Virus record (IMG/VR): IMGVR_UViG_3300048996_000142
Span: 1-36,823 of that record
Reading direction: 5' to 3' (one strand)
Source: a virus
DNA: 36,823 nucleotides
This document shows, piece after piece, positions 2,973-34,932 of the stretch. The notes under the pieces were generated by a model, which saw nothing but the letters and a program-made list of their open reading frames with translations, was not told the DNA's origin and did not search any database. The translations under genes and the position numbers were made by a program. Numbering within the stretch: the first letter of the stretch is position 1; each line of letters begins with the position of its first letter.

Positions 2973-3818
2973 ATGACCATGGTCGCATCCCCCGACGATC
3001 CCGGCGACAACCGGGCCGTCGAACGCTTCACGAACAGCGAGTTCGATGTCGAGCTGGTCCCCGACGGCGACAGCTTCAAGGTCGTCGCCTCCGGCGTAGC
3101 GCAGGCCCTCGGCTTCCACGCCGCCAAGGACATGCTGCGCACCGTCCCCGACGAGGAGAAAGGGTGGGAGACAGCTCCCACCCCTGGTGGAGAGCAGCGC
3201 GTTCACGTCCTCCTGGAGCCGGGCTTCTACCGCGTCATCGGCCAGCGGCAGGCCACTCGCATCAAGGACCAGGTTGTACGCGAGCAGGTCGAGCGCTTCC
3301 AGTCGTGGGTGTACGGCGAAGTGCTGCCGTCCCTGCGGAGGCACGGCCGCTATGAGGCGCCAGCCGCGCCCAAGCAGCGGGAGATCACGGCCGCGGCTGG
3401 CCCGCTGCCGTACAAGGAGCAGGCCGAGGTCGTCGTCATCTTCGCCCAGGCCGGCGTGCTGCCCGAGTCCTACGCGACCGCCACGGCAAAGGTGATCGTC
3501 GCTCGGGCGATGGGTGAGCGGCCCGAGCTGGAGCCGTCAGAGACCCCGCTGTATGCGGCGACGTTCCTGGCAGAGAAGGGGCACAAGCCGAAGACGGTCG
3601 TGAAGTTCCAGTCCGGGTTCGGGTCTCGCGTGTCGAACCGCTACTTCAAGGTGCACGGCCGTCGTCCGGAGAAGATCCCGGGCCCGGCTGGCTCACGCAT
3701 CGACAAGGTGGCCGTGTACACGGAGGACGACCGTCCGATCCTGCAGCAGGTGTACGCCGAGATCGCTGATCTGATCAGCGCGTTCGAGACGGGAGGGCAG
3801 ATCGCGCTCAGCGCGTAG
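2973..3818 (+). CDS. Bro-N domain phage antirepressor
   Basis: A 281-aa protein. Residues about 17-125 match the BRO N-terminal domain: FDVELVPDGDSFKVVASGVA, ALGFHAAKDMLRTVPDEEKG, and FYRVIGQRQATR ... FQSWVYGEVLPSLRRHGRY. Bro-N proteins in phages act as antirepressors or DNA-binding regulators. The C-terminal half (residues 140-280) contains a helical region and GFGSRVSNRYFKVHGRRPEK, which could be a second HTH. I cannot assign it to KilA-C with confidence. AGAAGGAG precedes the ATG. Divergent from the XRE repressor at 2324-2794, it probably controls or antagonises that protein. A strong terminator follows. Confidence 0.85.
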   Translation: MTMVASPDDPGDNRAVERFTNSEFDVELVPDGDSFKVVASGVAQALGFHAAKDMLRTVPDEEKGWETAPTPGGEQRVHVLLEPGFYRVIGQRQATRIKDQVVREQVERFQSWVYGEVLPSLRRHGRYEAPAAPKQREITAAAGPLPYKEQAEVVVIFAQAGVLPESYATATAKVIVARAMGERPELEPSETPLYAATFLAEKGHKPKTVVKFQSGFGSRVSNRYFKVHGRRPEKIPGPAGSRIDKVAVYTEDDRPILQQVYAEIADLISAFETGGQIALSA

Positions 3819-3829
3819 TCGCACGCGAG

Positions 3830-3864
3830 AAGGCCCCGCTTCCGGATAGCCGGAGCGGGGCCTT
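3830..3864. terminator. bidirectional terminator
   Basis: Inverted repeat AAGGCCCCGCT-T-CCGG (3830-3845) with CCGGAGCGGGGCCTT (3850-3864), one bulged base and a 4-nt loop. It lies between the convergent antirepressor gene and the end of the leftward gene at 3867. Confidence 0.8.
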
Positions 3865-3866
3865 CG

Positions 3867-4523
3867 TCACGCCGCGGCCTCCTGTTCCCGGATGGTGTTG
3901 GGTCCGTATTCGGAGTCGAGTTGCATGAGCTGGTCGCGTCGGTAGGTTTCGCCGCAGTCGGGGCACCGGGACCGTTCCACGATCATGGTGATGTTCATGG
4001 CGCCGCCGCAGTCGGCGACGCCGCAGTAGACGGTGAAGCGGCGCGGCCCTGGTTCGCCTTTGGTGATGCCGTCGAGCTGGGCGTGGAGGTGGGCTATGGA
4101 CCGCAGGTCGGTGTCGACCTCACCGTAGTTGGAGCAGGCCCATCCGAGCTGGTTGATGAGGAATGTAGTGGCGCCGTCGATGTCGGCGTGATGCCGGGTG
4201 GCGCCCATGGACCAGCCGAGGGCTTTCCGCCAGTCGTCCTCGATGATCTGCAGTTCCGTGACGACGCCGCCCTTCGCGATCAGCGAGAGTATGCCGAGCT
4301 TGAGCGGGGCGGGGATCTCCCGGGTGCCGCCGACCTGGCCTGTACTGCTGCCCTTCATGAGCGCGGACAGCTGGTCGAGGCTCTTGAACAGGGCGGGCAG
4401 GGCGCGGAGTTGTTCGAACGCGGTGTGCTCGCAGCGGCCACAGGCCCAGCGGCCGGCGGCGAGTTCGGTGTCCCACAGGTGGGCGTGGCACTTCGTGCAG
4501 CAGGGCGTCGGGGCGTCGTTCAC
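3867..4523 (-). CDS. phage protein with two zinc-ribbon motifs
   Basis: A 218-aa product. The N-terminus has CCTKCHAHLWDTELAAGRWACGRC (Cys pairs at about 8-12 and 28-31). The C-terminus has CGVADCGGAMN ... SRCPDCGETY. Both look like Zn ribbons around a helical middle (LFKSLDQLSALMKGSSTG). Actinophages often carry such proteins of unknown role, sometimes used in DNA or RNA binding. The last gene of the leftward early operon chain, it ends against the terminator at 3830-3864. Confidence 0.65.
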   Translation of the reverse strand: MNDAPTPCCTKCHAHLWDTELAAGRWACGRCEHTAFEQLRALPALFKSLDQLSALMKGSSTGQVGGTREIPAPLKLGILSLIAKGGVVTELQIIEDDWRKALGWSMGATRHHADIDGATTFLINQLGWACSNYGEVDTDLRSIAHLHAQLDGITKGEPGPRRFTVYCGVADCGGAMNITMIVERSRCPDCGETYRRDQLMQLDSEYGPNTIREQEAAA

Positions 4524-4558
4524 GGCGTGCTCCTTGCGGGCGGTGCGGGTGGGGCGGG

Positions 4559-4915
4559 TCAGGAGAATTCGCGGGTGCTGAATTCGTGGCCGTCGCTGAC
4601 GAACCAGTCGTCGTAGACGCGGTGCATGCCGAGGTCGGGCTGCGGCTTCATGTGGCTGCGCAGTTCCCGCTTGTCATGGATGAGCGACAGGAGGTCGGCG
4701 ATGGTGTGCGGTCGGCCGTACTCGTCGACGATCTGGCCGTTGAGGGCGAGCTTCATCCAGTCGGCGAAGGCGGTGTCGGGTGCCCAGTCGGCGTCGGCTT
4801 GGAAGCTGAAGCGCCAGCCGCCGCTGCTCTTGCCGAGGTGGATGCTTTCGCTGGCTGAGCAGTGCTTGCAGGCGTTCTCGCAGGGCGGCGTCTGAACGTA
4901 GTAGTTGGTTCCCAT
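4559..4915 (-). CDS. hypothetical protein with CxxxC-x2-C site
   Basis: A 118-aa product beginning MGTNYYVQTPPCENACKHCS. The start is fixed by AAGGAG 7 nt upstream; the frame is open further upstream but that part is low-complexity Arg/Pro. The CENACKHC segment followed by IHLGKSSGGW suggests a small metal-binding N-terminus. The rest (WMKLALNGQIVDEYGRPHTI, SLIHDKRELRSHM) is soluble and helical. MGTNYYV-type proteins occur widely in phages without known function. Confidence 0.65.
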   Translation of the reverse strand: MGTNYYVQTPPCENACKHCSASESIHLGKSSGGWRFSFQADADWAPDTAFADWMKLALNGQIVDEYGRPHTIADLLSLIHDKRELRSHMKPQPDLGMHRVYDDWFVSDGHEFSTREFS

Positions 4916-4953
4916 GGCGGGGCTCCTTGCGGCGGTGCGGGGGTGCGGGTGGG

Positions 4954-5118
4954 TCAGGTGCGGGGCTGGCAGGCGGGCCAGTGCCGGTGGACGGGCCGCT
5001 CCACAGGCGCGGCCGGGTCGCTGTCGAAGCCGCCGAAAATCCGCCGCCCGCAGTCGTGGCAGCGGGACGGGCTGGTACCGAGCAGCCACTGCCACAGGAT
5101 CCGGAGGCGGGCGGTCAC
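4954..5118 (-). CDS. small Cys-containing protein
   Basis: A 54-aa product from a GTG in a GTGA overlap with the gene upstream. It begins VTARLRILWQWLLGTSPSRC and contains CHDCGRRIFGG, a single zinc-knuckle-like pair, and a last C near the end. A short hydrophobic stretch (LRILWQWLLG) precedes the Cys pair. Function unknown. Confidence 0.5.
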   Translation of the reverse strand: MTARLRILWQWLLGTSPSRCHDCGRRIFGGFDSDPAAPVERPVHRHWPACQPRT

Positions 5119-5312
5119 CGGGGCTCCCGGTGACAGCGGCAGACGCACTTGGCGCCGCAGTGCTTGCAGGTTGCCGGCCGCTTCGCCCCGGCCAGTCCGG
5201 TCATGTTCTGGCAGTAGCCGTGGTCGCCGTGGAGGCAGCCGGTGGACAGATAGACGTGGCGGCCGACGATGCGGTGCGCGAGGCGCTGGAGGGCGACGGT
5301 GATCGCGGTCAC
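5115..5312 (-). CDS. small Cys-rich protein
   Basis: A 65-aa product from a GTG overlapping the previous stop by 4 nt. After a helix (TAITVALQRLAHRIVGRHVY) it has C-x4-H-x3-Y-C and ATCKHCGAKCVCRCHREPR, with seven Cys in 40 residues, consistent with one or two bound zinc ions. Actinophage early regions are rich in such mini-proteins; no specific function is known. Confidence 0.55.
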   Translation of the reverse strand: MTAITVALQRLAHRIVGRHVYLSTGCLHGDHGYCQNMTGLAGAKRPATCKHCGAKCVCRCHREPR

Positions 5313-5752
5313 GGCTGCTCGCCGTCATCCGGGCGTGGACCGCGCCAGTCGAGGAGGGCGTCGGGGCACACGCCGGGCTGGCCGTCGTCGTCCTGGTCTG
5401 GGTACGACTTGCCGCAGGTGCAGTCATGGCGGAGTGATCCGAAGGCCATGAGATGCGAGTGGGCGGAGCGGTGGGTGAGCGGGCCGACGTATTTCGGGCA
5501 GCGCATGAAGTGCCGTCCGGTCCGCGGGCTCGCGCTGGCGGCCGGGTGCTCGGGATGTTTGACGTAGCAGCGGTGGCACGTGCCGCGGGGCCATTCGCTG
5601 GCGAAGCGTCGGGCGTCGTACAGCGGGGAGATCAACTCGTCCCACACGGCGTCGACGTAGGCGGCAGGGATGATGCTGGCGAGGTGCTCGGCAGCCTCGG
5701 CTCGGCTGAGCGGCTTGGGCCAGCGCTGGTCGATGTCGAGGGGTTCGCGCAT
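5309..5752 (-). CDS. hypothetical protein with Cys pairs
   Basis: A 147-aa product starting MREPLDIDQRWPKPLSRAEA at an ATG that overlaps the previous stop (TGATG). The frame runs open further back but the 5' part is Arg-rich out-of-frame sequence. Visible features: a helical N-terminus, TCHRCYVKHPEHP, GRHFMRCPKYVGP and HDCTCGKSYP, suggesting structural zinc. I do not recognise the family. Confidence 0.6.
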   Translation of the reverse strand: MREPLDIDQRWPKPLSRAEAAEHLASIIPAAYVDAVWDELISPLYDARRFASEWPRGTCHRCYVKHPEHPAASASPRTGRHFMRCPKYVGPLTHRSAHSHLMAFGSLRHDCTCGKSYPDQDDDGQPGVCPDALLDWRGPRPDDGEQP

Positions 5753-6111
5753 CACTCGCCGCCCTTCTGGAGTGGCCAGACGCGGTCGACCTCGCGGCAT
5801 TCGGCGACGCTCGGCCCGTCGTCGCCGTCTTCGAGGGCACGGTGGATTGCGGCGGCTGCCGGGTGTCGTTCCCCGGGGCGCATGGCGGCCTGCCACTGGT
5901 CGGCGAGGCGGCGCACCCGGGCGAGGCGCTGCTGGTCGTGGACGAGCTGGGCGGTGTACGCGGCGAGCGCCGCATCCCGGGCGGCGAGTTCCGCTTCGAG
6001 CTTCGCCTTGGCCGCTTCCTGGCTGGCGCAGATGTCGGCGAGGTCGAGCTCGTCGAAGTTCTCCATGAACCAGCGGGCGCGGGGGCTGAGTTCGTCGTAG
6101 CGGCCGGTCAC
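5752..6111 (-). CDS. coiled-coil phage protein
   Basis: A 119-aa product from a GTG coupled to the preceding stop by a 4-nt overlap. It begins VTGRYDELSPRARWFMENFD and has a long Ala/Glu-rich helix (ASQEAAKAKLEAELAARDAA through LARVRRLADQWQAAMRPGE) that should form a coiled coil. No enzymatic motif. Similar short helical proteins recur in Streptomyces phage early operons. Confidence 0.6.
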   Translation of the reverse strand: MTGRYDELSPRARWFMENFDELDLADICASQEAAKAKLEAELAARDAALAAYTAQLVHDQQRLARVRRLADQWQAAMRPGERHPAAAAIHRALEDGDDGPSVAECREVDRVWPLQKGGE

Positions 6112-6455
6112 GGCTGCTCCTGCGGCTGGTCGGGGATGGATAGGTCGCGGGTTCCGGCGCGCAGCCACTGCCCCGACGCGTCCGGCTGGAGGTGCCCGAA
6201 CTCCCGGAGCACTTCCCGGAGGTCGGCGATGCCGGCCCGGTATCCGTCGCCCCACGCGGTGCGGTCGGTGACGGGTTCGTCGGCGAGGTCGAGGCAGGCG
6301 TCGATGGTGCCGCGGAGGCGGCTGGCGGTGACGGCGCGGCGGATCGCCTTCAGGCGCCACCCGTTGGCGTCGGCGCGGAGCTGGTCTGTGGCGGCCTGCG
6401 CCGTGGCCGGGTGGTCCGGCTCGATGAGTGTCTCGGCTGTCGGCTGGTCGGTCAC
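6108..6455 (-). CDS. hypothetical helical protein
   Basis: A 115-aa product from a GTG preceded by AGGAAAGG. It begins VTDQPTAETLIEPDHPATAQ and has helices QLRADANGWRLKAIRRAVTA and YRAGIADLREVLREFGHLQP. Soluble, no Cys clusters. It is the first gene of a coupled set running to 5115-5118; the interval 6456-6570 holds the previous gene's end and no other gene I can support. Function unknown. Confidence 0.6.
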   Translation of the reverse strand: MTDQPTAETLIEPDHPATAQAATDQLRADANGWRLKAIRRAVTASRLRGTIDACLDLADEPVTDRTAWGDGYRAGIADLREVLREFGHLQPDASGQWLRAGTRDLSIPDQPQEQP

Positions 6456-10339: not shown

Positions 10340-10944
10340 GAGGTCTCCTCGAGTCGGTTCAGGTGGCGGAGGGATGCGGCGCGGCGGCGCTCGGCTTCGG
10401 CTTGTTCGGCGACCGGGTCAGTTCCCCCGCCGCGGGCCGCGTGAGGGGCGCGCTCATTGCCGCCCGGGGTTCGGCACGGCCGGCCTATGGCGGCCTGGCA
10501 CTTGGGGCACTCGGCACCGAGGGGGCCGGGCCGCTTCACCTCGGCGATCTCCGGCGGGACCTCGCGGCCCACGCCGGCCAGGAGCTCGGCCATCTTTCGG
10601 GGCTTCAACTCGAAGCCGTCCGCTGCTCGACTGCGCTGACCGCGCAGGGCGGCGAGGTACGCCCGCACGTCGTCCGGATCGGCGTCCGGAACCTCGGCGG
10701 GTAGGCCGGGCCCTTGGAAGTCCGCTGCACGCTCACCGCGGATCTTCTTGATCTCACCGATGATCTCGGCCGGGCTGACGAACGGCTGACGCTTCGCAAC
10801 TGCGGCAGCAGCTGCACGGGCGTCGGCGAGGGCGAAGTCGCCGAGGACGTCGTGCCAGGCGTCGGGGGTGTACTCGTCGAACTTCTGCTGGGGGCAGAGG
10901 GCTTTCACGTAGCGGGCGAGCATGACTGTCTCGCTGGGGTTCAT
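10336..10944 (-). CDS. helicase-loader-like replication protein with zinc finger
   Basis: A 202-aa product starting MNPSETVMLARYVKALCPQQ. The first 75 residues (DAWHDVLGDFALADARAAAA, RQPFVSPAEIIGEIKKIRGE) match the N-terminal pattern of actinophage helicase loaders, in which a short helical domain ends in a FVxPAEI motif. The C-terminus has CPKCQAAIGRPCRTPGGNER...PHAARG, a zinc finger shared with the next gene. Placed directly after the replication initiator with an ATGA overlap, it probably helps load the replicative helicase. Confidence 0.65.
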   Translation of the reverse strand: MNPSETVMLARYVKALCPQQKFDEYTPDAWHDVLGDFALADARAAAAAVAKRQPFVSPAEIIGEIKKIRGERAADFQGPGLPAEVPDADPDDVRAYLAALRGQRSRAADGFELKPRKMAELLAGVGREVPPEIAEVKRPGPLGAECPKCQAAIGRPCRTPGGNERAPHAARGGGTDPVAEQAEAERRRAASLRHLNRLEETS

Positions 10945-12086
10945 GAGGACTCCTGCTGCTGGCGGGCGTTGGCGCGCTCCATGGCGCGGGCGAAGAGGTC
11001 GTCTGATTGCTGCTGTTGGCGGGCAGCGAAGGGGATGACATCGGCGCCGGCTGCTGCCTTGCGGATGTCGGAGAAGGCGAACTGGAGGGTGTTGGCGGTG
11101 ACCGGCTTGCTGGTCTCACCAAGGCGCTCGAGGGCGCGCCACAGCTCGCTGGAGTCGGTGTGGTTCGCGAGCGCGTCGGCGATGGTGGTTCGGACTTGGC
11201 GGCGCTTGTAGGAGTTGCCGCGGGCGAAGCGCTCGAGGAAGGCGTCGGCCATCCGGTCTGGGAGCGCCCTTTCCGTCTGCGCGACGGCGGGTTCGCTGGA
11301 CGGCTCACCGGGGGGTAGGGGGGTGTTCCCTTCCCTTCCCTTCCCTTCCCTTCCTTTCCCTTCCGTCAGTGAATGGTTCAGTGAAGAAATCTCACTGTCC
11401 GCATCCCTCTCAGTCTCAGAGTTGGACGGAGCGTGAGATTCGTTCACTGAGTCATTCACTGAACGGTTCAGTGAGTCATTCAGTGAATCCTCAATGCCTG
11501 CGAGCTCCGCGGGCGGAATGAACTCCTCCCCGTCCGGACCGCCGCGTCGACTCCTGGCGCACGCTTGGTGCGCGGCACGGACGTTGGACGGGTGGTCCGT
11601 ACCGCCTGCGGACACCGGCCGGACGTAGTCGATGGCCAGGTTGTGGGCGTCGACGCTGACGAGGCGTCGCGGGATCTCACCGCCGCACAGCTGGCACATC
11701 CAGCCGTCGCGGCGGGCGTACATCTCCCGCACCTGCCACGCCCCAGTCGAGGGCGGCGGCAGCTTGCTCTTCTGCGGCCGGTTGATCCGCTGGTGCTTAC
11801 GGAAGTTGACGACCAGAGCCATCTGCTGACGGGCCGCACCCCCGATGTACGGGAAGACGAGCCCCGTGTCGGTGAGGCACCGCATCAACTGGTCGACGTC
11901 CTTGATCGTCAGGTCGTCGTCGTACATGAACGCCTGCGCCTTGATGTAGGCCGGCGTCCAGCGCAGGATGCCCTCGTCGTCCGCCATGTTGAATGTCGCG
12001 ATGAACAACAGCCGGGCATCGCGCGGCATGACTCCGAGGAGCTCGTCCTCCCAAAACTCGGGCTTCACAGTGCGAATGCGCGGCAT
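10941..12086 (-). CDS. phage replication initiator with embedded HNH-like domain
   Basis: A 381-aa product starting MPRIRTVKPEFWEDELLGVM (residues before this in the open frame are Pro-rich and unlikely). Residues 1-100 are a DnaD-type winged helix typical of phage initiators. Residues 128-180 form an HNH-like zinc domain (C131, C134, DYVRPVSAGG, SNVRAAHQAC). The first catalytic His is replaced by Tyr154 (usual DHV), so cleavage activity is doubtful. Residues 200-256 are low-complexity (SLNDSLNRSVNDSVNE, EGKGREGKGREG), produced by iterons and a GGGAA tract in the DNA. Residues 280-380 are helical (LPDRMADAFLERFARGN, AFSDIRKAA). Binding to the iterons inside its own gene is inferred. Confidence 0.8.
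   Translation of the reverse strand: MPRIRTVKPEFWEDELLGVMPRDARLLFIATFNMADDEGILRWTPAYIKAQAFMYDDDLTIKDVDQLMRCLTDTGLVFPYIGGAARQQMALVVNFRKHQRINRPQKSKLPPPSTGAWQVREMYARRDGWMCQLCGGEIPRRLVSVDAHNLAIDYVRPVSAGGTDHPSNVRAAHQACARSRRGGPDGEEFIPPAELAGIEDSLNDSLNRSVNDSVNESHAPSNSETERDADSEISSLNHSLTEGKGREGKGREGNTPLPPGEPSSEPAVAQTERALPDRMADAFLERFARGNSYKRRQVRTTIADALANHTDSSELWRALERLGETSKPVTANTLQFAFSDIRKAAAGADVIPFAARQQQQSDDLFARAMERANARQQQESS
11326..11364 (-). repeat. GGGAA pentanucleotide tract (G4 motif)
   Basis: Read on the coding (minus) strand: five perfect GGGAA units (11326-11350) preceded by GGAA, GGGAAA and GGAA. Five GGG runs spaced by AA meet a G-quadruplex pattern. The unit length of 5 nt is not a multiple of three, so gain or loss of units by slippage would shift the reading frame of the initiator's C-terminal 130 residues. 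Confidence 0.9.
11365..11487. repeat. six 12-bp-phased iterons, candidate replication origin
   Basis: The 9-mer TTCA(C/G)TGA(A/G) occurs at 11377, 11443, 11455, 11467 and 11479, with a one-mismatch copy at 11365. Spacing within each group is exactly 12 bp. Each copy is itself palindromic around its centre. The region is visibly lower in GC than the rest and lies inside the initiator gene next to a G-rich tract. This layout resembles lambda, whose origin iterons lie in gene O. Origin function is inferred. Confidence 0.7.
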
Positions 12087-12137
12087 GTGACGGTCTTCCT
12101 TCGAGCGGTACGGATAGGGTTCCGGCGCGAGATCAGG

Positions 12138-12165
12138 GGTGGGGTCGCCAGCACGCGGCCCCACC
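12138..12165 (-). terminator. weak hairpin after the ParB-radical SAM gene start of the interval
   Basis: GGTGGGG (12138-12144) pairs with CCCCACC (12159-12165) around a 14-nt loop, between the stop of the gene at 12171 and the initiator start at 12086. It may attenuate rather than fully stop leftward transcription. Confidence 0.4.
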
Positions 12166-12170
12166 TGGCT

Positions 12171-13625
12171 TTACTGCTGCGGGTATTCGTCGATGGGCTG
12201 CATGCCGGGCCGGCCATTGAAGAGGTTCGGCTTGAGATGCACGCGGCATCCCGCTTCGCGGGCCTGGGCGACGATCCGGGCGACCCACTCAAAGGGCGGG
12301 GCGAACGCGGGCACGGTGCCGGTCGGCTGCCTCGTTTCGGTCTGGGCGCCGATGACGACCCAGTCGAACATCGACAGATCCGTGAACTCCAAGGGCTCCA
12401 GGAGGGGTTCGAGAGACAGCCACTTGACGCGGCCTCCGTCGATCTCACGGAAGGCGTCTTCTGCGATCCGCACGCGCTTCTGCTCGTCGACGCTGGTGCC
12501 GATCCATGCGCCGGGAGGCATGTCGAGTCCGACGTATCGCTTGGGGAACTTGGTGAGGGTGATGTACTGCCACGCCGGGTTGGCACACATCGCCTGGTGC
12601 ACCTGGTTGATCCACTCGTCGGGAACCCACCTGCCGTAGAGGTCGGCCATTGAGCAGACGAACACCCGCTGGTATGCCGGGTCGTCGCGATGCATGGCGG
12701 GGATCGCCGTGTTGGCCGGCGCGTCGAGCCGCTCGTGGTGGAACAGCGGAGTGAAGCCGACCGGGTAGGCCCCCCGGTAGCGCTCGCTGGTGGCAATCTC
12801 GCGGGCGTAGCAGTAGGCGCAGCCGTGCAGGCAGCCCGTCACCGGGTTCCAGGACCAGGCCGCCCAGGAAATCCCCTGCCCCTTGGACTCGTTGAACGTG
12901 GCCTTGCTCTGCGGCTCCGGGTACCGGACTTCGGTTCCGTCGTGGGTGCGGAGGGTGAGCATGACCGCAGCCGGCTTGGTCGCGACCGGTTCGGGCCTGG
13001 GCATAGCGGCGATGCGTTGACGGCGCTGCTTGTCCGCGGCGTCCAGGGCGATCTCTCCGGTGCGGACCTTCTCGGCCAGATCTGGAGCGTCGCGTTGAAC
13101 GGCGATTGCCCGCTGAACAGAACGGCCCGACGCTCCGACGACCTTGGCGGCGCGCTCACTCGACTCGCGCTGCCGCCGGTCGGCAACGGCATTGATGGGC
13201 CGCAATTCCCGCCGATCGGCGGGAATTGTCTCGCTCTCGGTAATTGTCCGATGCGATGAGTCACCGATCGGGCGGCCCGGTGGATTTGCCGCGGCATAGA
13301 ACCGCTTGTATTCCACCGCCATGAACGCCTGTTGCCCGGGGTTCAATTGCCGTCGGGCCAGGTTCTTCGACACGATCAGGTCGAGGATCATGGTCTCCGT
13401 GTAGCGCTCCGGCAGCGTCTCGAAGACCGGGTCCGATCCGGCTTCCTCGCAGGCCCGCCACCGGTTGCGGCCATCGACGAGGACGGTCTTGTCGTGGTTC
13501 AGGATGATGGGCTCACGCAAGCCGTTGCGCTTGATGTCCCGCACCAACTCGGCGAATTCCTCGCCGCCGATGAGGGGGAAGGCGTCCGCGAACGGGTGCA
13601 CTTCGTAGGGGCCGAGCTTGTTCAC
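12171..13625 (-). CDS. ParB-like / radical SAM (DUF5131, Gp37-Gp68 type) fusion
   Basis: A 484-aa product from GTG 13625, with a GGAAAG site upstream and 1 nt after the HNH stop. Residues 8-110 match the ParB/sulfiredoxin fold: EFAELVRDIKRNGLREPIIL and VLVDGRNRWRACEEAG. Residues 150-205 include an HTH-like stretch (ASGRSVQRAIAVQR). Residues 250-480 match the DUF5131 radical SAM family (ISWAAWSWNPVTGCLHGCAY) with C265-x3-C269-x2-C272 to bind a 4Fe-4S cluster and, downstream, conserved FVCSMADLYGRWVP, WLSLEPLLEPL and WVVIGAQTETRQ. DUF5131 proteins often pair with TcmP partners; a TcmP-like gene is two genes upstream. The ParB part could bring it to DNA. Substrate unknown. Confidence 0.85.
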   Translation of the reverse strand: MNKLGPYEVHPFADAFPLIGGEEFAELVRDIKRNGLREPIILNHDKTVLVDGRNRWRACEEAGSDPVFETLPERYTETMILDLIVSKNLARRQLNPGQQAFMAVEYKRFYAAANPPGRPIGDSSHRTITESETIPADRRELRPINAVADRRQRESSERAAKVVGASGRSVQRAIAVQRDAPDLAEKVRTGEIALDAADKQRRQRIAAMPRPEPVATKPAAVMLTLRTHDGTEVRYPEPQSKATFNESKGQGISWAAWSWNPVTGCLHGCAYCYAREIATSERYRGAYPVGFTPLFHHERLDAPANTAIPAMHRDDPAYQRVFVCSMADLYGRWVPDEWINQVHQAMCANPAWQYITLTKFPKRYVGLDMPPGAWIGTSVDEQKRVRIAEDAFREIDGGRVKWLSLEPLLEPLEFTDLSMFDWVVIGAQTETRQPTGTVPAFAPPFEWVARIVAQAREAGCRVHLKPNLFNGRPGMQPIDEYPQQ

Positions 13626-13626
13626 G

Positions 13627-13887
13627 TCAGCTTTCCTTTCCGTGAATCTCGCAGTGGCAGCGGTGGCACACCGCCGAAAGGTTTTCTGGGATGTCGAACG
13701 CGCCCCACGGCGGATAGCGCCAGTGGTGCGGCTCCGTCGGCGGACGCACCTTGCAGCGCTCGCACTTGCCGGCCGCCCGCTCGAAGACCGCGGTGCGCAC
13801 CGCGAGGAACCGCGGGTGGCCCAGGTACTCGCGGTACGACCGGTATGGGGCGTCTCCGGGCGTGGGCGGCTGATAGTGGCGAACCAT
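13627..13887 (-). CDS. small HNH endonuclease
   Basis: An 86-aa product starting MVRHYQPPTPGDAPYRSYRE at an ATG overlapping the previous stop by 1 nt. It has a typical HNH core: zinc pair KCERCK, first His pair PTEPHHWRYPPWG, Asn in IPENLSAVC, then CHRCHCEIHG with the second zinc pair and final His. All expected catalytic residues are present, unlike the degenerate copy in the initiator. It lies between the TcmP-like and ParB-radical SAM genes in one operon. It may be a homing-type nuclease or act with its neighbours. Confidence 0.8.
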   Translation of the reverse strand: MVRHYQPPTPGDAPYRSYREYLGHPRFLAVRTAVFERAAGKCERCKVRPPTEPHHWRYPPWGAFDIPENLSAVCHRCHCEIHGKES

Positions 13888-14873
13888 CAGGCGGCGTCCC
13901 CGATGTCGAACAGCTTCAGATCTCCGCCGACGTCGGGCAGGTTGCCGGGCTTCGGGGCGACGGGCCGCGGAATCATCGACAGACGCTGTTCGCTGCTCGC
14001 CGCCATCCACTCGCGCTCGCGGCCACGGATCTGCTTCAGCTCGGACTTCTGCAGGAAGAGCCGCAGCAGGATGTCGTCGAACCCGTCGCGGTTCTGCCGC
14101 CACCACGCGATGCTGACCGAGCGGTTGCAGCTCTTAGCGCTCTTCCTGGCGGCTTGGTCGGTCTTGGAACGCCACTTGTCGGACGTTGCTACCAGGTAGG
14201 CCCACTGTGCTTCGTCCTGGTCGAGAGCTGCGAGCGACAAGTCCCGGTAATCGGGCAGCGATTGCTGCTGTTCGCGGACCGTGGCGAACCACTTGATCCG
14301 CTCGTCGATGGTGAGCCGCTTCAGGCCGGCCGGGTTGCAGCCCATGGTCGACAGGGACCTGGACAGCCCGGTGCGCGTTGCTATCTCGGCGGTGAAGCTG
14401 TCGCGCATTGCCCAGTCGACGATGGCATTGGGGTCGTTGACGACGAAGACGGCGGCGTTGCGGTCGATGTCGGTGACGTCGGCATGGGCACCGCTGATGT
14501 TGTGGGCCGTGACGGTCGAGTCGTTGCCGGGGTGGGTCCAGGCGTTCGGCCCTGCTGTGTTGTAGCCGAGGGCCGGCAGGTAGCTGGCCAGGTTCCCGAG
14601 GAGTCGGTCGTAGGTGGCGGCCTGGATCTCGTGGAGGCGGACCTGCACGGGGATCCGGGACTGTGCGGCGTAGTAGGCGAGGATGCCGGGCGAGCAGGCG
14701 CGATGCCACATTTCGCCGGGGATGAGGGCGGCGTCTCCGGCGGTGAGGTCGTACCAGGTGCCGCGGTGGGCGCCGAGGTGGGCGATGGCGCCGACTTCCT
14801 GGCCGACGACGCTGCACAGGTAGTCGTGCTTGATGGGCGTGCGCCAGCTTCGGCCGACGTTGGGCTTTGCCAT
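13887..14873 (-). CDS. TcmP-like protein with methyltransferase-type fold
   Basis: A 328-aa product starting MAKPNVGRSWRTPIKHDYLC with GAGGAA upstream. The order KHDYL ... TWYDLTAGDAAL ... VRLHEIQAATYDRLLGNLAS ... AAVFVVNDPNAIVDWAM matches the layout of three-Cys-motif partner proteins (TcmP), whose core resembles a SAM-dependent methyltransferase: a YxDLxAG loop, an acidic end of strand 2, and a DPN/DPP motif. The central region (CNPAGLKRLTIDERIKWFAT) and helical C-terminus are not assigned. TcmP proteins occur beside DUF5131 radical SAM proteins; that partner is encoded two genes downstream. Similarity judged by eye and remote, so the family call is moderate. Confidence 0.55.
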   Translation of the reverse strand: MAKPNVGRSWRTPIKHDYLCSVVGQEVGAIAHLGAHRGTWYDLTAGDAALIPGEMWHRACSPGILAYYAAQSRIPVQVRLHEIQAATYDRLLGNLASYLPALGYNTAGPNAWTHPGNDSTVTAHNISGAHADVTDIDRNAAVFVVNDPNAIVDWAMRDSFTAEIATRTGLSRSLSTMGCNPAGLKRLTIDERIKWFATVREQQQSLPDYRDLSLAALDQDEAQWAYLVATSDKWRSKTDQAARKSAKSCNRSVSIAWWRQNRDGFDDILLRLFLQKSELKQIRGREREWMAASSEQRLSMIPRPVAPKPGNLPDVGGDLKLFDIGDAA

Positions 14874-14952: not shown

Positions 14953-14975
14953 ATTGGCCATATTGGAAGGATTGG
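14953..14975 (+). repeat. ATTGG repeats before the Phd-type gene
   Basis: ATTGG occurs at 14953, 14962 and 14971, a strict 9-bp period, overlapping the ribosome site (GGAAGG, 14965-14970) of the gene at 14978. They could be part of an autoregulatory site, or just reflect an upstream extension of the coding frame (which has TTG codons here). Confidence 0.35.
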
Positions 14976-14977
14976 AA

Positions 14978-15310
14978 ATGACTTACACTCTGTTCATGCC
15001 TGCTGACCAGCGCATTCAGATCGCAGAGGACGGCGTCGCCGAGGTCCCCATGACCCACGCCCGCGCTGCCCTGACCTCGCTCATTCGCGAAGTCAGTTGG
15101 GGCAAGCGCCCTGGCGCCTTCACGGAGCGCGGCAATCGGGTCGCGATGGTCGTGCCGCCCGAGGAGTACGAGGACATCGCCGTGCTTCGCGAGCTGCGCC
15201 AGTACCTGACCGAGCAGGAGGCTGGCGAGGGCGCGCCTGCCACGACGAATGCCCGCGTCCTGCGCGAGGCGCTCGACATCGCCAAGCGCCGCGCTCTCGA
15301 CTCGACCTGA
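14978..15310 (+). CDS. solo Phd/YefM-family antitoxin-like protein
   Basis: A 110-aa product starting MTYTLFMPADQRIQIAEDGV, ATG 7 nt after GGAAGG. The segment VAEVPMTHARAALTSLIREV then KRPGAFTERGNRVAMVVPPEEYED matches the Phd/YefM fold (antitoxin DNA-binding N-terminus and RGxxVAVxVxxxxY core). The C-terminal helix (VLRELRQYLTEQEAGEG, VLREALDIAKRR) would neutralise a toxin. No toxin gene lies next to it; a terminator follows at once. The only rightward gene between 3.9 and 25.8 kb, it is divergent from the Tcm-like operon, so it may be a repressor of it or an antitoxin against a host toxin. Confidence 0.7.
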   Translation: MTYTLFMPADQRIQIAEDGVAEVPMTHARAALTSLIREVSWGKRPGAFTERGNRVAMVVPPEEYEDIAVLRELRQYLTEQEAGEGAPATTNARVLREALDIAKRRALDST

Positions 15311-27071: not shown

Positions 27072-28367
27072 ATGGCGGGATACGTCGAAGACCGCTGGTA
27101 CAAGCAGGGGCCCCCTGATCCGGACGACCCCAAAAAGCGGCCGACCCGGGTCAAAACGGATCTCCACGAAAAGTGCAAGCGGTACCGGGTGTGCGGCATA
27201 CCCGGCGTGCGGAAGCGGTCCTTCGAACGCAAGGCGGACGCGGAGACCTGGAAGGCAAAGGTCCAAACGGAGCTCCTGCGGGGCGAGTTTGTCGACCACC
27301 GTGACGGCAGCGTCTCCCTCGCGCACTACATCGCCGACGACTACTGGCCGACCAGGACCGGTGACCCTGGGAGCCTTCAGACCGTCAAGAGCCGGATCGA
27401 CAACCGCATCCTGCCCTATCTCGGCGGACTGCACCTCAACTCGATCAGAGTGCCGCAACTGCGTAAGTACCTGGCCGACATGAACGACAACTACGGCGCT
27501 TCCAGCACCATCGAAGCCTGGAGCACCCTGTCGTCCATCCTGCAGGCCGCTGTTGAAGACGAGCGCATCCCGCGCAACCCCTGCTTGGCCAAGACGGTGC
27601 GGCCACCGGCCAAGCCCGAGCGGAAGGCGCGAGCTTGGAGCCGAGCTCGCGTCATGGCGGTACGCGAGGGACTCGACGACCGGTTCAAAGTGATGGTCGA
27701 TCTCGGCGTCGCCGCCGGCCTGAGGCAGGGCGAGGTGCTCGGACTGTCCATTGACGACATCGACGGGGACGTCATCTATGTTCGCCGCCAGGTCCGTATC
27801 GTCAGGAACCGGCTGGTCTTCTCCCTGCCCAAGGGCGGGAAGACGCGCACGGTTCCGCTGCCCAAGTACCTTGCCGAACGGATCTCAGAGCACGCCGATC
27901 ACTTCCCGCCCGTCGAAGTCACGCTGCCCTGGACCAACCCTGCCGAGCCGGAGAACGAGAAGCAGGCGGCCGAACGGGCTCCCCAGACGCACCGGCTCTT
28001 GGTGACGGGCGAACGTCAGAAGGGCGCGCTGCGCCGGGGTGTGTTCAATGAGGGGCCGTGGAAGCGGGCGTTGGTGGCGGCCGGCGTGATTCCTGCGCCG
28101 CCGCAACGGACGCGGACGGTGGAGGAGAAGGCTCGCAGGGCCCGCGGGAACACGAAGTATGCGGCCGCCGCGGGGGACGGATTCCATGCGCTGCGCCACA
28201 CGTTCGCCTCAGTGCAGCTGGATGCCCGCGAGTCGGTCGTGGCGGTGTCGAAGTGGCTTGGGCATGCGGATCCGTCGATCACGCTGAAGATCTATGCGCA
28301 CATGATGCCGGAGGCCGACGGCCGCGGCAGGGCGGCCATGGATGCCTGGTTCGCGGGGGAATCCTAA
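27072..28367 (+). CDS. int: tyrosine integrase
   Basis: A 431-aa product starting MAGYVEDRWYKQGPPDPDDP. N-terminal arm-binding region (residues 1-85), a core-binding domain (SLAHYIADDYWPTRTGDPGS through VEDERIPRNP), and a catalytic domain with Arg218 (GLRQGE), Lys254/257, His372 and Arg375 (HALRHTFAS), His398 (WLGH) and Tyr408 (KIYAHMMP). All catalytic residues are in place. It should integrate the element at a chromosomal att site. The length is that of the Streptomyces phage and pSAM2-type integrases. The phage attachment site is expected just downstream. Confidence 0.9.
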   Translation: MAGYVEDRWYKQGPPDPDDPKKRPTRVKTDLHEKCKRYRVCGIPGVRKRSFERKADAETWKAKVQTELLRGEFVDHRDGSVSLAHYIADDYWPTRTGDPGSLQTVKSRIDNRILPYLGGLHLNSIRVPQLRKYLADMNDNYGASSTIEAWSTLSSILQAAVEDERIPRNPCLAKTVRPPAKPERKARAWSRARVMAVREGLDDRFKVMVDLGVAAGLRQGEVLGLSIDDIDGDVIYVRRQVRIVRNRLVFSLPKGGKTRTVPLPKYLAERISEHADHFPPVEVTLPWTNPAEPENEKQAAERAPQTHRLLVTGERQKGALRRGVFNEGPWKRALVAAGVIPAPPQRTRTVEEKARRARGNTKYAAAAGDGFHALRHTFASVQLDARESVVAVSKWLGHADPSITLKIYAHMMPEADGRGRAAMDAWFAGES

Positions 28368-33245: not shown

Positions 33246-33581
33246 GTGAACGATCTGCCGCCCGACCTGCCCAGACTCCGCACCCTGGAGACCTGGCTCG
33301 CCCACACCCTCGACCGGGTACGGCAACAGATCGCGGAGCTGGAGCAGCGGGAAGCCGAACGGCAGCACGGCGAGCAGACCCGGCCGCCCGAACCGGACTG
33401 GCTGCTCGAGCGCGGCCTCGACGGACACGCACCCGCCGTGTACGTCCACATCGGCGGCTGCCACATGGCGGGGAAACGCAGCCGCGGCGTCGCGCAGGAC
33501 CAGGCGCTGCGGGCACTCGCGGACGGCGTCGACGCGTGCCCGCACTGCCGGCCCGACTCGGAGCTCGGATACCTGGACTAG
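33246..33581 (+). CDS. DUF6233-type protein
   Basis: A 111-aa product from GTG 33246, starting VNDLPPDLPRLRTLETWLAH. It has the family features: a helix LDRVRQQIAELEQREAERQH, then PEPDWLLERGLDG, VYVHIGGCHMAGKRSRGVAQ and ALADGVDACPHCRPDSELGY with CxxC. DUF6233 proteins are abundant in Streptomyces and unassigned. Divergent from the mini-LexA gene, so likely under the same SOS-type operator. Its stop overlaps the convergent recombinase gene's stop. Confidence 0.75.
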   Translation: MNDLPPDLPRLRTLETWLAHTLDRVRQQIAELEQREAERQHGEQTRPPEPDWLLERGLDGHAPAVYVHIGGCHMAGKRSRGVAQDQALRALADGVDACPHCRPDSELGYLD

Positions 33582-34597
33582 AGCCCGATGTCCTCGCTGG
33601 CGGCGTCGGTCCACTTGTCGGCTTCGCGGATGTAGCCCCAGAAGGCGGGGCTGTTCTCGGCGTGGCCGGACTGTTCGCGGATCTTCTCCTCACGCTTGCC
33701 TGCTCGGCGTGAGGTGGTGATGAACCCGGCCCGCATCGAGTGCCCGGTCAGCCGCACGGCGACGCCTGCGCGTTCGGCGTTGCGGGCGATGATCTCGCGG
33801 ACCGATTCGGCGGTGAGGTGGCCGTCGGCGATGTTGCCCCAGACGTCGATGGCGCGGAAGGCGGCTCCGGTGGTGATGCCGCTGGCGGCCTTCCAGGTGG
33901 ACCAGGCGCGGACGGGGCAGGTGTCGGGGTTCTTGCCGTACATGACGACGACTTCACGGGCGGGCCTGCCCTTCACGCCGGGGACTCGGACTTTGAGGCC
34001 TTCGCTGTGGAGGGTGATGCCTTCGGCTCGGATGGCAGCGACTTCGGCGGAGCGGCCTGCGATGAAGAAGGCCATGAGCCAGAGGGCGCGGTCGCGGATT
34101 CCGGTGAGCCCTTCGGGTACGGCGGCGGCCATCTGTCGGAGTTGGTCGGGGGTGGCGGCTTTGGCGGCTCCTCGTCCGCGTGCGATGCGGTCCTCGTCGG
34201 CCTTGAGTGGCTTGAGGGCTTTGCGTGCGGCGACGGTGGCTTCCTTGGGGACTTCGACGCCGAGGCTGCGGGCGGTGACGGTGACGCCGGTGATGCGGCG
34301 GTCGATGCTGCTGGGTGCGGCGGTCTTGATGGTGTCGAGCCAGACCACGAAGCCTACGAGCGTGCCCTTCGTGACGGCAGTGGAGGGCATGCGGTGGCCG
34401 GTACGTTCGGCTAGCCAGTTGTGGAACTCTTCCCACAGCGCCCAGTCGTTGGCGTAGCCGCGCTTCGTGTTGCTGGGGATGATCGCGTCGAGGTGCTCGT
34501 CGGCGGCCTTCTCCATGGCGGCGAGGACGGCGAGCGTCGCAGCGTCGTAGACGGCGGGGGCGGCGTCCGGCTGGCGTGGGACCAGGGCGTCTGTCAC
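33578..34597 (-). CDS. second tyrosine recombinase
   Basis: A 339-aa product from GTG 34597 in a GTGA overlap. Core-binding domain residues 20-130 (AIIPSNTKRGYANDWALWEE, TLVGFVVWLDTIKTAAPSSI). Catalytic residues Arg182 (AGRSAEVAA), Lys209, His286 and Arg289 (TGHSMRAGF), His312 (QSGHAENSPAF) and Tyr322 (WGYIREADKW). All are present. The domain pattern without a long arm-binding N-terminus resembles Cre- and XerD-like enzymes more than the main integrase. It may resolve dimers, drive a different insertion, or invert DNA; no repeated recombination sites were found next to it. Confidence 0.8.
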   Translation of the reverse strand: MTDALVPRQPDAAPAVYDAATLAVLAAMEKAADEHLDAIIPSNTKRGYANDWALWEEFHNWLAERTGHRMPSTAVTKGTLVGFVVWLDTIKTAAPSSIDRRITGVTVTARSLGVEVPKEATVAARKALKPLKADEDRIARGRGAAKAATPDQLRQMAAAVPEGLTGIRDRALWLMAFFIAGRSAEVAAIRAEGITLHSEGLKVRVPGVKGRPAREVVVMYGKNPDTCPVRAWSTWKAASGITTGAAFRAIDVWGNIADGHLTAESVREIIARNAERAGVAVRLTGHSMRAGFITTSRRAGKREEKIREQSGHAENSPAFWGYIREADKWTDAASEDIGL

Positions 34598-34932
34598 GGC
34601 CTCCACTCCTCGCGGTAGCCGGGCCGGTCCACGTAGGGCAGGGCGAGGAGGCGCAGCGTGGCGCATGGGTCCTTAGCGTGCCACTGAGTCGGGCCATCCT
34701 CGGCCACGCACTGGTGGTGGGTGCGAGCGTGCAGGTTAACGATGCGTCGCTTGGCGTCGATCTCGCGCAGCACCCGAGCCGGATCAGCGAACCGCGCGAT
34801 GTGCAGCGCCACCGGGGCCTGCGCATACGACCGAGGGATGCCCGTCACCATCTCCGGCGACGTGTTGGCCTCACGGACGATCCGCTCGTCCTCGTCGAGT
34901 TGGTCGCGCAGCCATCGCGCCAGCTCATCCAT
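34594..34932 (-). CDS. DUF6221-type protein
   Basis: A 112-aa product starting MDELARWLRDQLDEDERIVR. The full family pattern is visible: an N-terminal helix, VALHIARFADPARVLREIDA, KRRIVNLHARTHHQCVAEDG, and the ending PCATLRLLALPYVDRPGYREEWRP. DUF6221 proteins are common in Streptomyces genomes and phages and have no known role. Coupled to the recombinase gene by GTGA. Confidence 0.8.
   Translation of the reverse strand: MDELARWLRDQLDEDERIVREANTSPEMVTGIPRSYAQAPVALHIARFADPARVLREIDAKRRIVNLHARTHHQCVAEDGPTQWHAKDPCATLRLLALPYVDRPGYREEWRP

Follow-up and report, generated by a model that had tools for sequence, protein, structure and literature searches.

DUF5131 and TcmP proteins are widespread in bacteria and phages and count as a candidate defence pair whose reaction is not known. 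In PADLOC, the combination of TcmP and DUF5131 makes up the candidate anti-phage systems PDC-M41 and PDC-M30. In bacteria, TcmP genes score with the component A models and the DUF5131 genes beside them with the component B models. These bacterial pairs are located outside phages and have neither an HNH gene nor a DNA-binding head. The literature searched contains no work on the function of DUF5131, TcmP, PDC-M30 or PDC-M41, and the papers found only list the families.

Pairs are also present in cultured Gordonia phages, of which six are compared here (Angelique, ThankyouJordi, Fairfaxidum, BaxterFox, Jablanski and Easley; loci L157, L165-L168 and L170). There the two genes are convergent, flanked by the integrase region on one side and the immunity repressor on the other, with TcmP beside the repressor. 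Two characterised enzymes provide further points of reference. RlmJ is a nucleic-acid adenine-N6 methyltransferase that modifies A2030 of 23S rRNA, and spore photoproduct lyase is a radical-SAM enzyme with DNA as its substrate.

Setting and conservation of the trio

The window, meaning the whole stretch of DNA analysed, is a 36.8-kb virus record of high G+C content and actinophage type (IMGVR_UViG_3300048996_000142). Because it encodes two integrase-like genes (27072-28367, plus strand, and 33578-34666, minus strand), an antirepressor and RecE/RecT, it is taken to be a temperate phage or a phage fragment; the host group is soil actinobacteria. A long minus-strand run houses the trio together with the genes for RecE, RecT, a C5-cytosine DNA methyltransferase and a replication initiator. 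The preliminary description had placed three coupled genes directly upstream of this initiator, and both the coupling and the placement are borne out. The three ORFs are present, all on the minus strand, and the initiator gene is the next one downstream of the fusion (Table 1). The methyltransferase gene has the ribosome-binding site AGAGGA and its stop codon overlaps the HNH start codon (TGATG); the HNH gene in turn stops one base short of the GTG start codon of the fusion, which has the ribosome-binding site GGAAAGGAAAG.

Table 1. Features of the trio and the adjoining initiator gene, with the basis of each assignment
Feature	Position	Strand	Basis
TcmP-like AdoMet methyltransferase, 328 aa	13887..14873	-	AF2 model, RlmJ fold match, iterated HMM, motif columns
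HNH nuclease, 86 aa	13627..13887	-	PHROG HNH families, 1e-8; start overlaps methyltransferase stop
Fusion of ParB-like domain, HTH and DUF5131 radical-SAM domain, 484 aa	12171..13625	-	Pfam, PHROG, alignment, AF2, fold search
ParB N-terminal fold, residues 1-113	13287..13625	-	Fold match and solved-structure sequence match
ParB-type helix-turn-helix, residues 144-207	13005..13196	-	AF2 helices; Spo0J/KorB match
DUF5131 radical-SAM domain, residues 245-484	12171..12893	-	PF07505; fold match 4fhc
C265-x3-C269-x2-C272 iron-sulphur motif	12810..12833	-	Alignment of relatives
Replication-initiator-type protein with inserted HNH (outside the unit)	10941..12164	-	phrog_5718, E 3.9e-153

The HNH domain inserted in the initiator is a relative of the trio's small HNH. 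On the other side of the trio, a Phd/YefM antitoxin-like gene (14954-15310, plus strand) is divergent and has an 80-bp intergenic stretch in common with it. This gene is kept in the five closest relatives and is a possible regulator of the trio; no toxin gene is seen beside it. A comparison of close relatives finds a conserved promoter-like stretch upstream of the trio, which belongs to the divergent gene, and no evident parS-like operator.

The association of the three genes, which the preliminary description had left to be checked elsewhere, recurs when neighbours are tabulated. The window and 33 phage contigs have a TcmP-family gene immediately upstream of the DUF5131 gene. Relatives of the fusion are found in 34 tabulated loci, 23 of which have an HNH relative; direct search detects a window-type methyltransferase in 20 of them, and the profile detects a TcmP-family gene in every one. 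Any given flanking gene occurs in at most eight of these loci, the flank counts being lower bounds owing to limited flank lengths. The pairwise distances of HNH, methyltransferase and DUF5131 are mutually correlated (Mantel r 0.66-0.81). Chance is excluded, because the trio is conserved in tens of independent contigs, and it is a real and, to judge from its gene junctions, translationally coupled unit among flanking genes that vary. In bacteria, the iterated profile described below places TcmP-family genes beside DUF5131 in 28 of 80 loci.

Domains and kinships of the three proteins

The methyltransferase fold first proposed for the 328-aa protein is upheld by an AlphaFold2 model (pLDDT 87, pTM 0.84) with a Rossmann AdoMet-methyltransferase fold, for which the best PDB match is RlmJ (E 2.3e-7). 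Scans against Pfam, NCBIfam, PHROG and PADLOC, including the PADLOC component A models, give nothing significant; a PDB profile search with the family gives a chance match only, a viral fold library returns generic methyltransferases only, and no such protein is found in the named phage records searched. Against TIGR04474, whose curated cut-off is 53 bits, the protein is without a match up to E 1, and two of its relatives match marginally (E 0.028-0.16; 14.3 and 11.9 bits). With the direct scans empty, homology was therefore shown via iteration. A profile HMM seeded with 20 close relatives was iterated over about 10,300 ORFs from the surroundings of DUF5131 genes. Within six rounds it takes in TcmP genes that score above the TIGR04474 cut-off in their own right, the E-values of the iteration being optimistic for so small a set of ORFs. 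The final TcmP profile also scores RlmJ-type genes, in line with the fold match, and an hhalign comparison of the family with 11 TcmP is marginal (65% probability, E 5.9e-5).

Independent of the iteration, motif columns, fold and gene position support the kinship. The protein carries T12, K15-H16, D42-LTAGD, S61-P62, E82 and D147-P148-N149, and the aligned family retains T-x2-K, D-x2-[AS]-G-x-[GA], S-P, an acidic residue at position 82 and D-P. The 328-aa protein is most likely a TcmP by descent and a distant relative. Its earlier reported resemblance to TcmP stands as homology through the iterated profile and the marginal hits of its relatives, but not as membership, because it falls below the curated cut-off. 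Window-type methyltransferases are nearly absent from chromosomes: only the two query genomes match, and none among about 690 other actinobacterial genomes.

The small HNH protein is intact, as had been claimed, with the catalytic residues H54-H55, N69 and H82 and the zinc cysteines C42xxC45 and C74xxC77 all in place; the last His is missing from some distant HNH relatives.

In the fusion, the DUF5131 domain matches PF07505 at E 1.3e-34 (120.2 bits against a gathering cut-off of 28.9) and the component B models of PDC-M41 and PDC-M30 at 1.1e-32 and 2.4e-31. C265, C269 and C272, picked out in the preliminary description, are invariant in an alignment of 31 relatives. The Pfam Radical_SAM model stays below its cut-off (19.1 against 29.5), and the domain is assigned to the radical SAM superfamily by its conserved C-x3-C-x2-C cluster motif, a sequence-based placement. 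Among solved enzymes, spore photoproduct lyase is closest in fold (4fhc, E 0.025, probability 0.95), a weak match common to many radical-SAM enzymes. Many phages carry DUF5131 alone.

The N-terminal head is below the gathering cut-off of Pfam ParB_N (20.3 against 26.3 bits). The fusion sequence matches solved ParB structures at E 3.9e-6, and the N-terminal half of its model, including the helix-turn-helix, matches structures of ParB, Spo0J and KorB; a PDB profile search with the fusion returns nothing. Both acidic residues of the ParB nucleotide-binding motifs are replaced (GERR by GRNR, ENLQR by KNLAR), so CTP switching is left unclaimed for this head. The AlphaFold model has a pLDDT of 84 overall and a pTM of only 0.57, which makes the arrangement of its domains uncertain. 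In Actinomadura sp. CNU-125 (L006 / L061), on a contig of 55790 bases, the fusion gene is split, with overlapping ORFs at 5172-6335 and 6095-6601 in L006, through either a frameshift or an assembly error. ParB-DUF5131 fusions lacking a recognised TcmP are found in the non-actinobacterial contigs L062 and L064; in the latter, from Bryobacterales, a 710-aa fusion (3627-5759) is near a C5-cytosine DNA methyltransferase-like gene.

Constant core and exchanged parts

A new feature of the trio is its division into a constant core, DUF5131 and HNH, and two parts that undergo exchange, the methyltransferase and the DNA-binding head. Among pairs of loci with DUF5131 domains at least 75% identical, the median identity is 76% for HNH, 44% for the methyltransferase (down to 16%) and 46% for the N-terminal head (down to 14%). 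In one pair of loci, L011 and L025, the identities are 0.79 for both DUF5131 and HNH, 0.21 for the methyltransferase and 0.20 for the head. The fusion of a ParB domain is a property of the window type, in which it is joined to an HTH, but it is only one among several exchangeable heads: close relatives have at least three DNA-binding-like kinds, ParB, HTH_38-type and SpoIIID/Xre-like HTH.

The Gordonia phages have DUF5131 proteins that are 92-97% identical, and their TcmP proteins fall into no fewer than four forms that are 19-26% identical, with one further pair at 51% and one at 97%. DNA homology between these phages covers the metalloprotease and DUF5131 genes, breaks at the DUF5131 end and is back in the repressor region, so that what these phages exchange is chiefly the TcmP gene. 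By these comparisons the methyltransferase is the polymorphic member of the pair. Some of this variation in Gordonia phages could come from mosaic exchange of immunity regions, and fast TcmP divergence could reflect escape from inhibitors instead of specificity.

Possible roles and comparison with known systems

The preliminary interpretation, with DNA or nucleotide modification or counter-defence as its proposed activities, is supported in part, and neither of the outcomes that it named as refuting came about. We tentatively favour, at somewhat less than an even chance, a phage-borne, DNA-directed two-enzyme module of TcmP/DUF5131 type with a nuclease added and with a probable role in conflict. 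What it acts on would be chosen by two exchangeable parts, the ParB/HTH head and the TcmP-like methyltransferase, DUF5131 would carry out a common radical-SAM step on the chosen target, and HNH, where present, would cut or nick DNA as an enforcing step. The conflict would probably be between phages or between phage and host, with self DNA marked or other DNA excluded; allelic exchange and kinship to the PDC systems are the reasons for favouring such a role. We infer four elements of this reading: specificity by the variable parts, the order of reactions, the biological role and DNA as the substrate, the last from the lyase-like fold, the HNH and the heads. With a DNA-binding head present, DNA is the likely target, and the pattern of constant core and variable methyltransferase predicts that TcmP sets specificity. 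RNA is a possible substrate, because the closest methyltransferase fold is that of RlmJ, which acts on rRNA. Against the favoured reading count the methyltransferase motif, DPN and not the classical DPPY; the position of the trio in an early replication/recombination run, unlike the Gordonia immunity cassette; the loci that lack HNH; the bacterial pairs with neither HNH nor DNA-binding head; and the empty PADLOC scan of the window methyltransferase.

A more novel reading, which we consider rather unlikely, makes the trio a system by which temperate phages achieve immunity or exclusion, aimed at DNA and polymorphic: swappable TcmP alleles and DNA-binding heads would define self and non-self, and the near-invariant radical-SAM protein, with HNH, would perform an undescribed modification or damage of DNA.

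The early-run position is what one would look for if the trio modified the DNA of the phage itself early in lytic growth as protection from host nucleases, with HNH as a side component. The trio is on the same strand as RecE, RecT and the C5-cytosine DNA methyltransferase, and the rarity of the phage variant in chromosomes also fits. A nuclease would however be superfluous for pure self-modification, the Gordonia relatives sit beside the repressor, the usual site of lysogen-expressed exclusion genes, and bacterial pairs occur outside phages; we regard self-protection as unlikely.

The preliminary description had treated the nuclease as a component lying between the two partners. This is so at most loci with an HNH gene, which is found between the methyltransferase and DUF5131 genes or fused, but the gene is missing in 11 of 34 loci, about a third, and is an accessory. 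That it is a homing or passenger gene with no part in the system is distinctly unlikely. HNH genes are common in phages, and beside these absences there is one locus (L019) where HNH is upstream of the methyltransferase. The position is nevertheless the same in most loci, HNH distances track those of DUF5131 (Mantel r 0.81, p 0.0005), two loci (L025 and L026) have HNH fused in frame to the methyltransferase C-terminus, and HNH is strongly conserved while the methyltransferase changes.

DNA repair, with DUF5131 reversing a DNA lesion in the manner of spore photoproduct lyase and TcmP and HNH assisting, is very unlikely. It could draw on the closest solved enzyme fold and on the phages with DUF5131 alone, but that fold match is weak and shared by many radical-SAM enzymes, and swapped methyltransferases and DNA-binding heads are not expected for general repair. 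Least probable is replication or partition control by the ParB-like fusion and HNH at the phage origin, suggested by the head and by the adjoining initiator with its inserted HNH (a related HNH is there in several contigs), since the flanks examined include an initiator relative at only 8 of the 34 loci, other heads replace ParB, the nucleotide-motif acidic residues are lost and no ParA is seen.

Among known systems, PDC-M41 and PDC-M30 have, like the trio, a TcmP-family methyltransferase directly upstream of DUF5131, the gene order in bacteria being the same; the trio differs in that its A component goes unrecognised by the models, its DUF5131 is fused to a DNA-binding head, an HNH gene is inserted and the whole is phage-borne. 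The Gordonia immunity-cassette pairs (e.g. Angelique gp42/gp43) likewise combine a constant DUF5131 with a variable TcmP, but they are convergent, without HNH or DNA-binding head, have a C-x6-C-x2-C spacing and lie beside the repressor. The fusion contains the full DUF5131 domain (PF07505, phrog_2045) with its invariant C-x3-C-x2-C, and departs from it in the N-terminal 240 residues of ParB fold and HTH. The 328-aa protein has the gene position and the T-x2-K, D-x2-A/S-G, S-P, E/D and D-P motifs of TcmP (TIGR04474), with DPN and CSPG in place of DPF/DPY and GSP. With RlmJ it has in common the N-terminal K-H and the D-x2-AG motifs, at about 10% identity and with the catalytic DPPY of RlmJ not retained.
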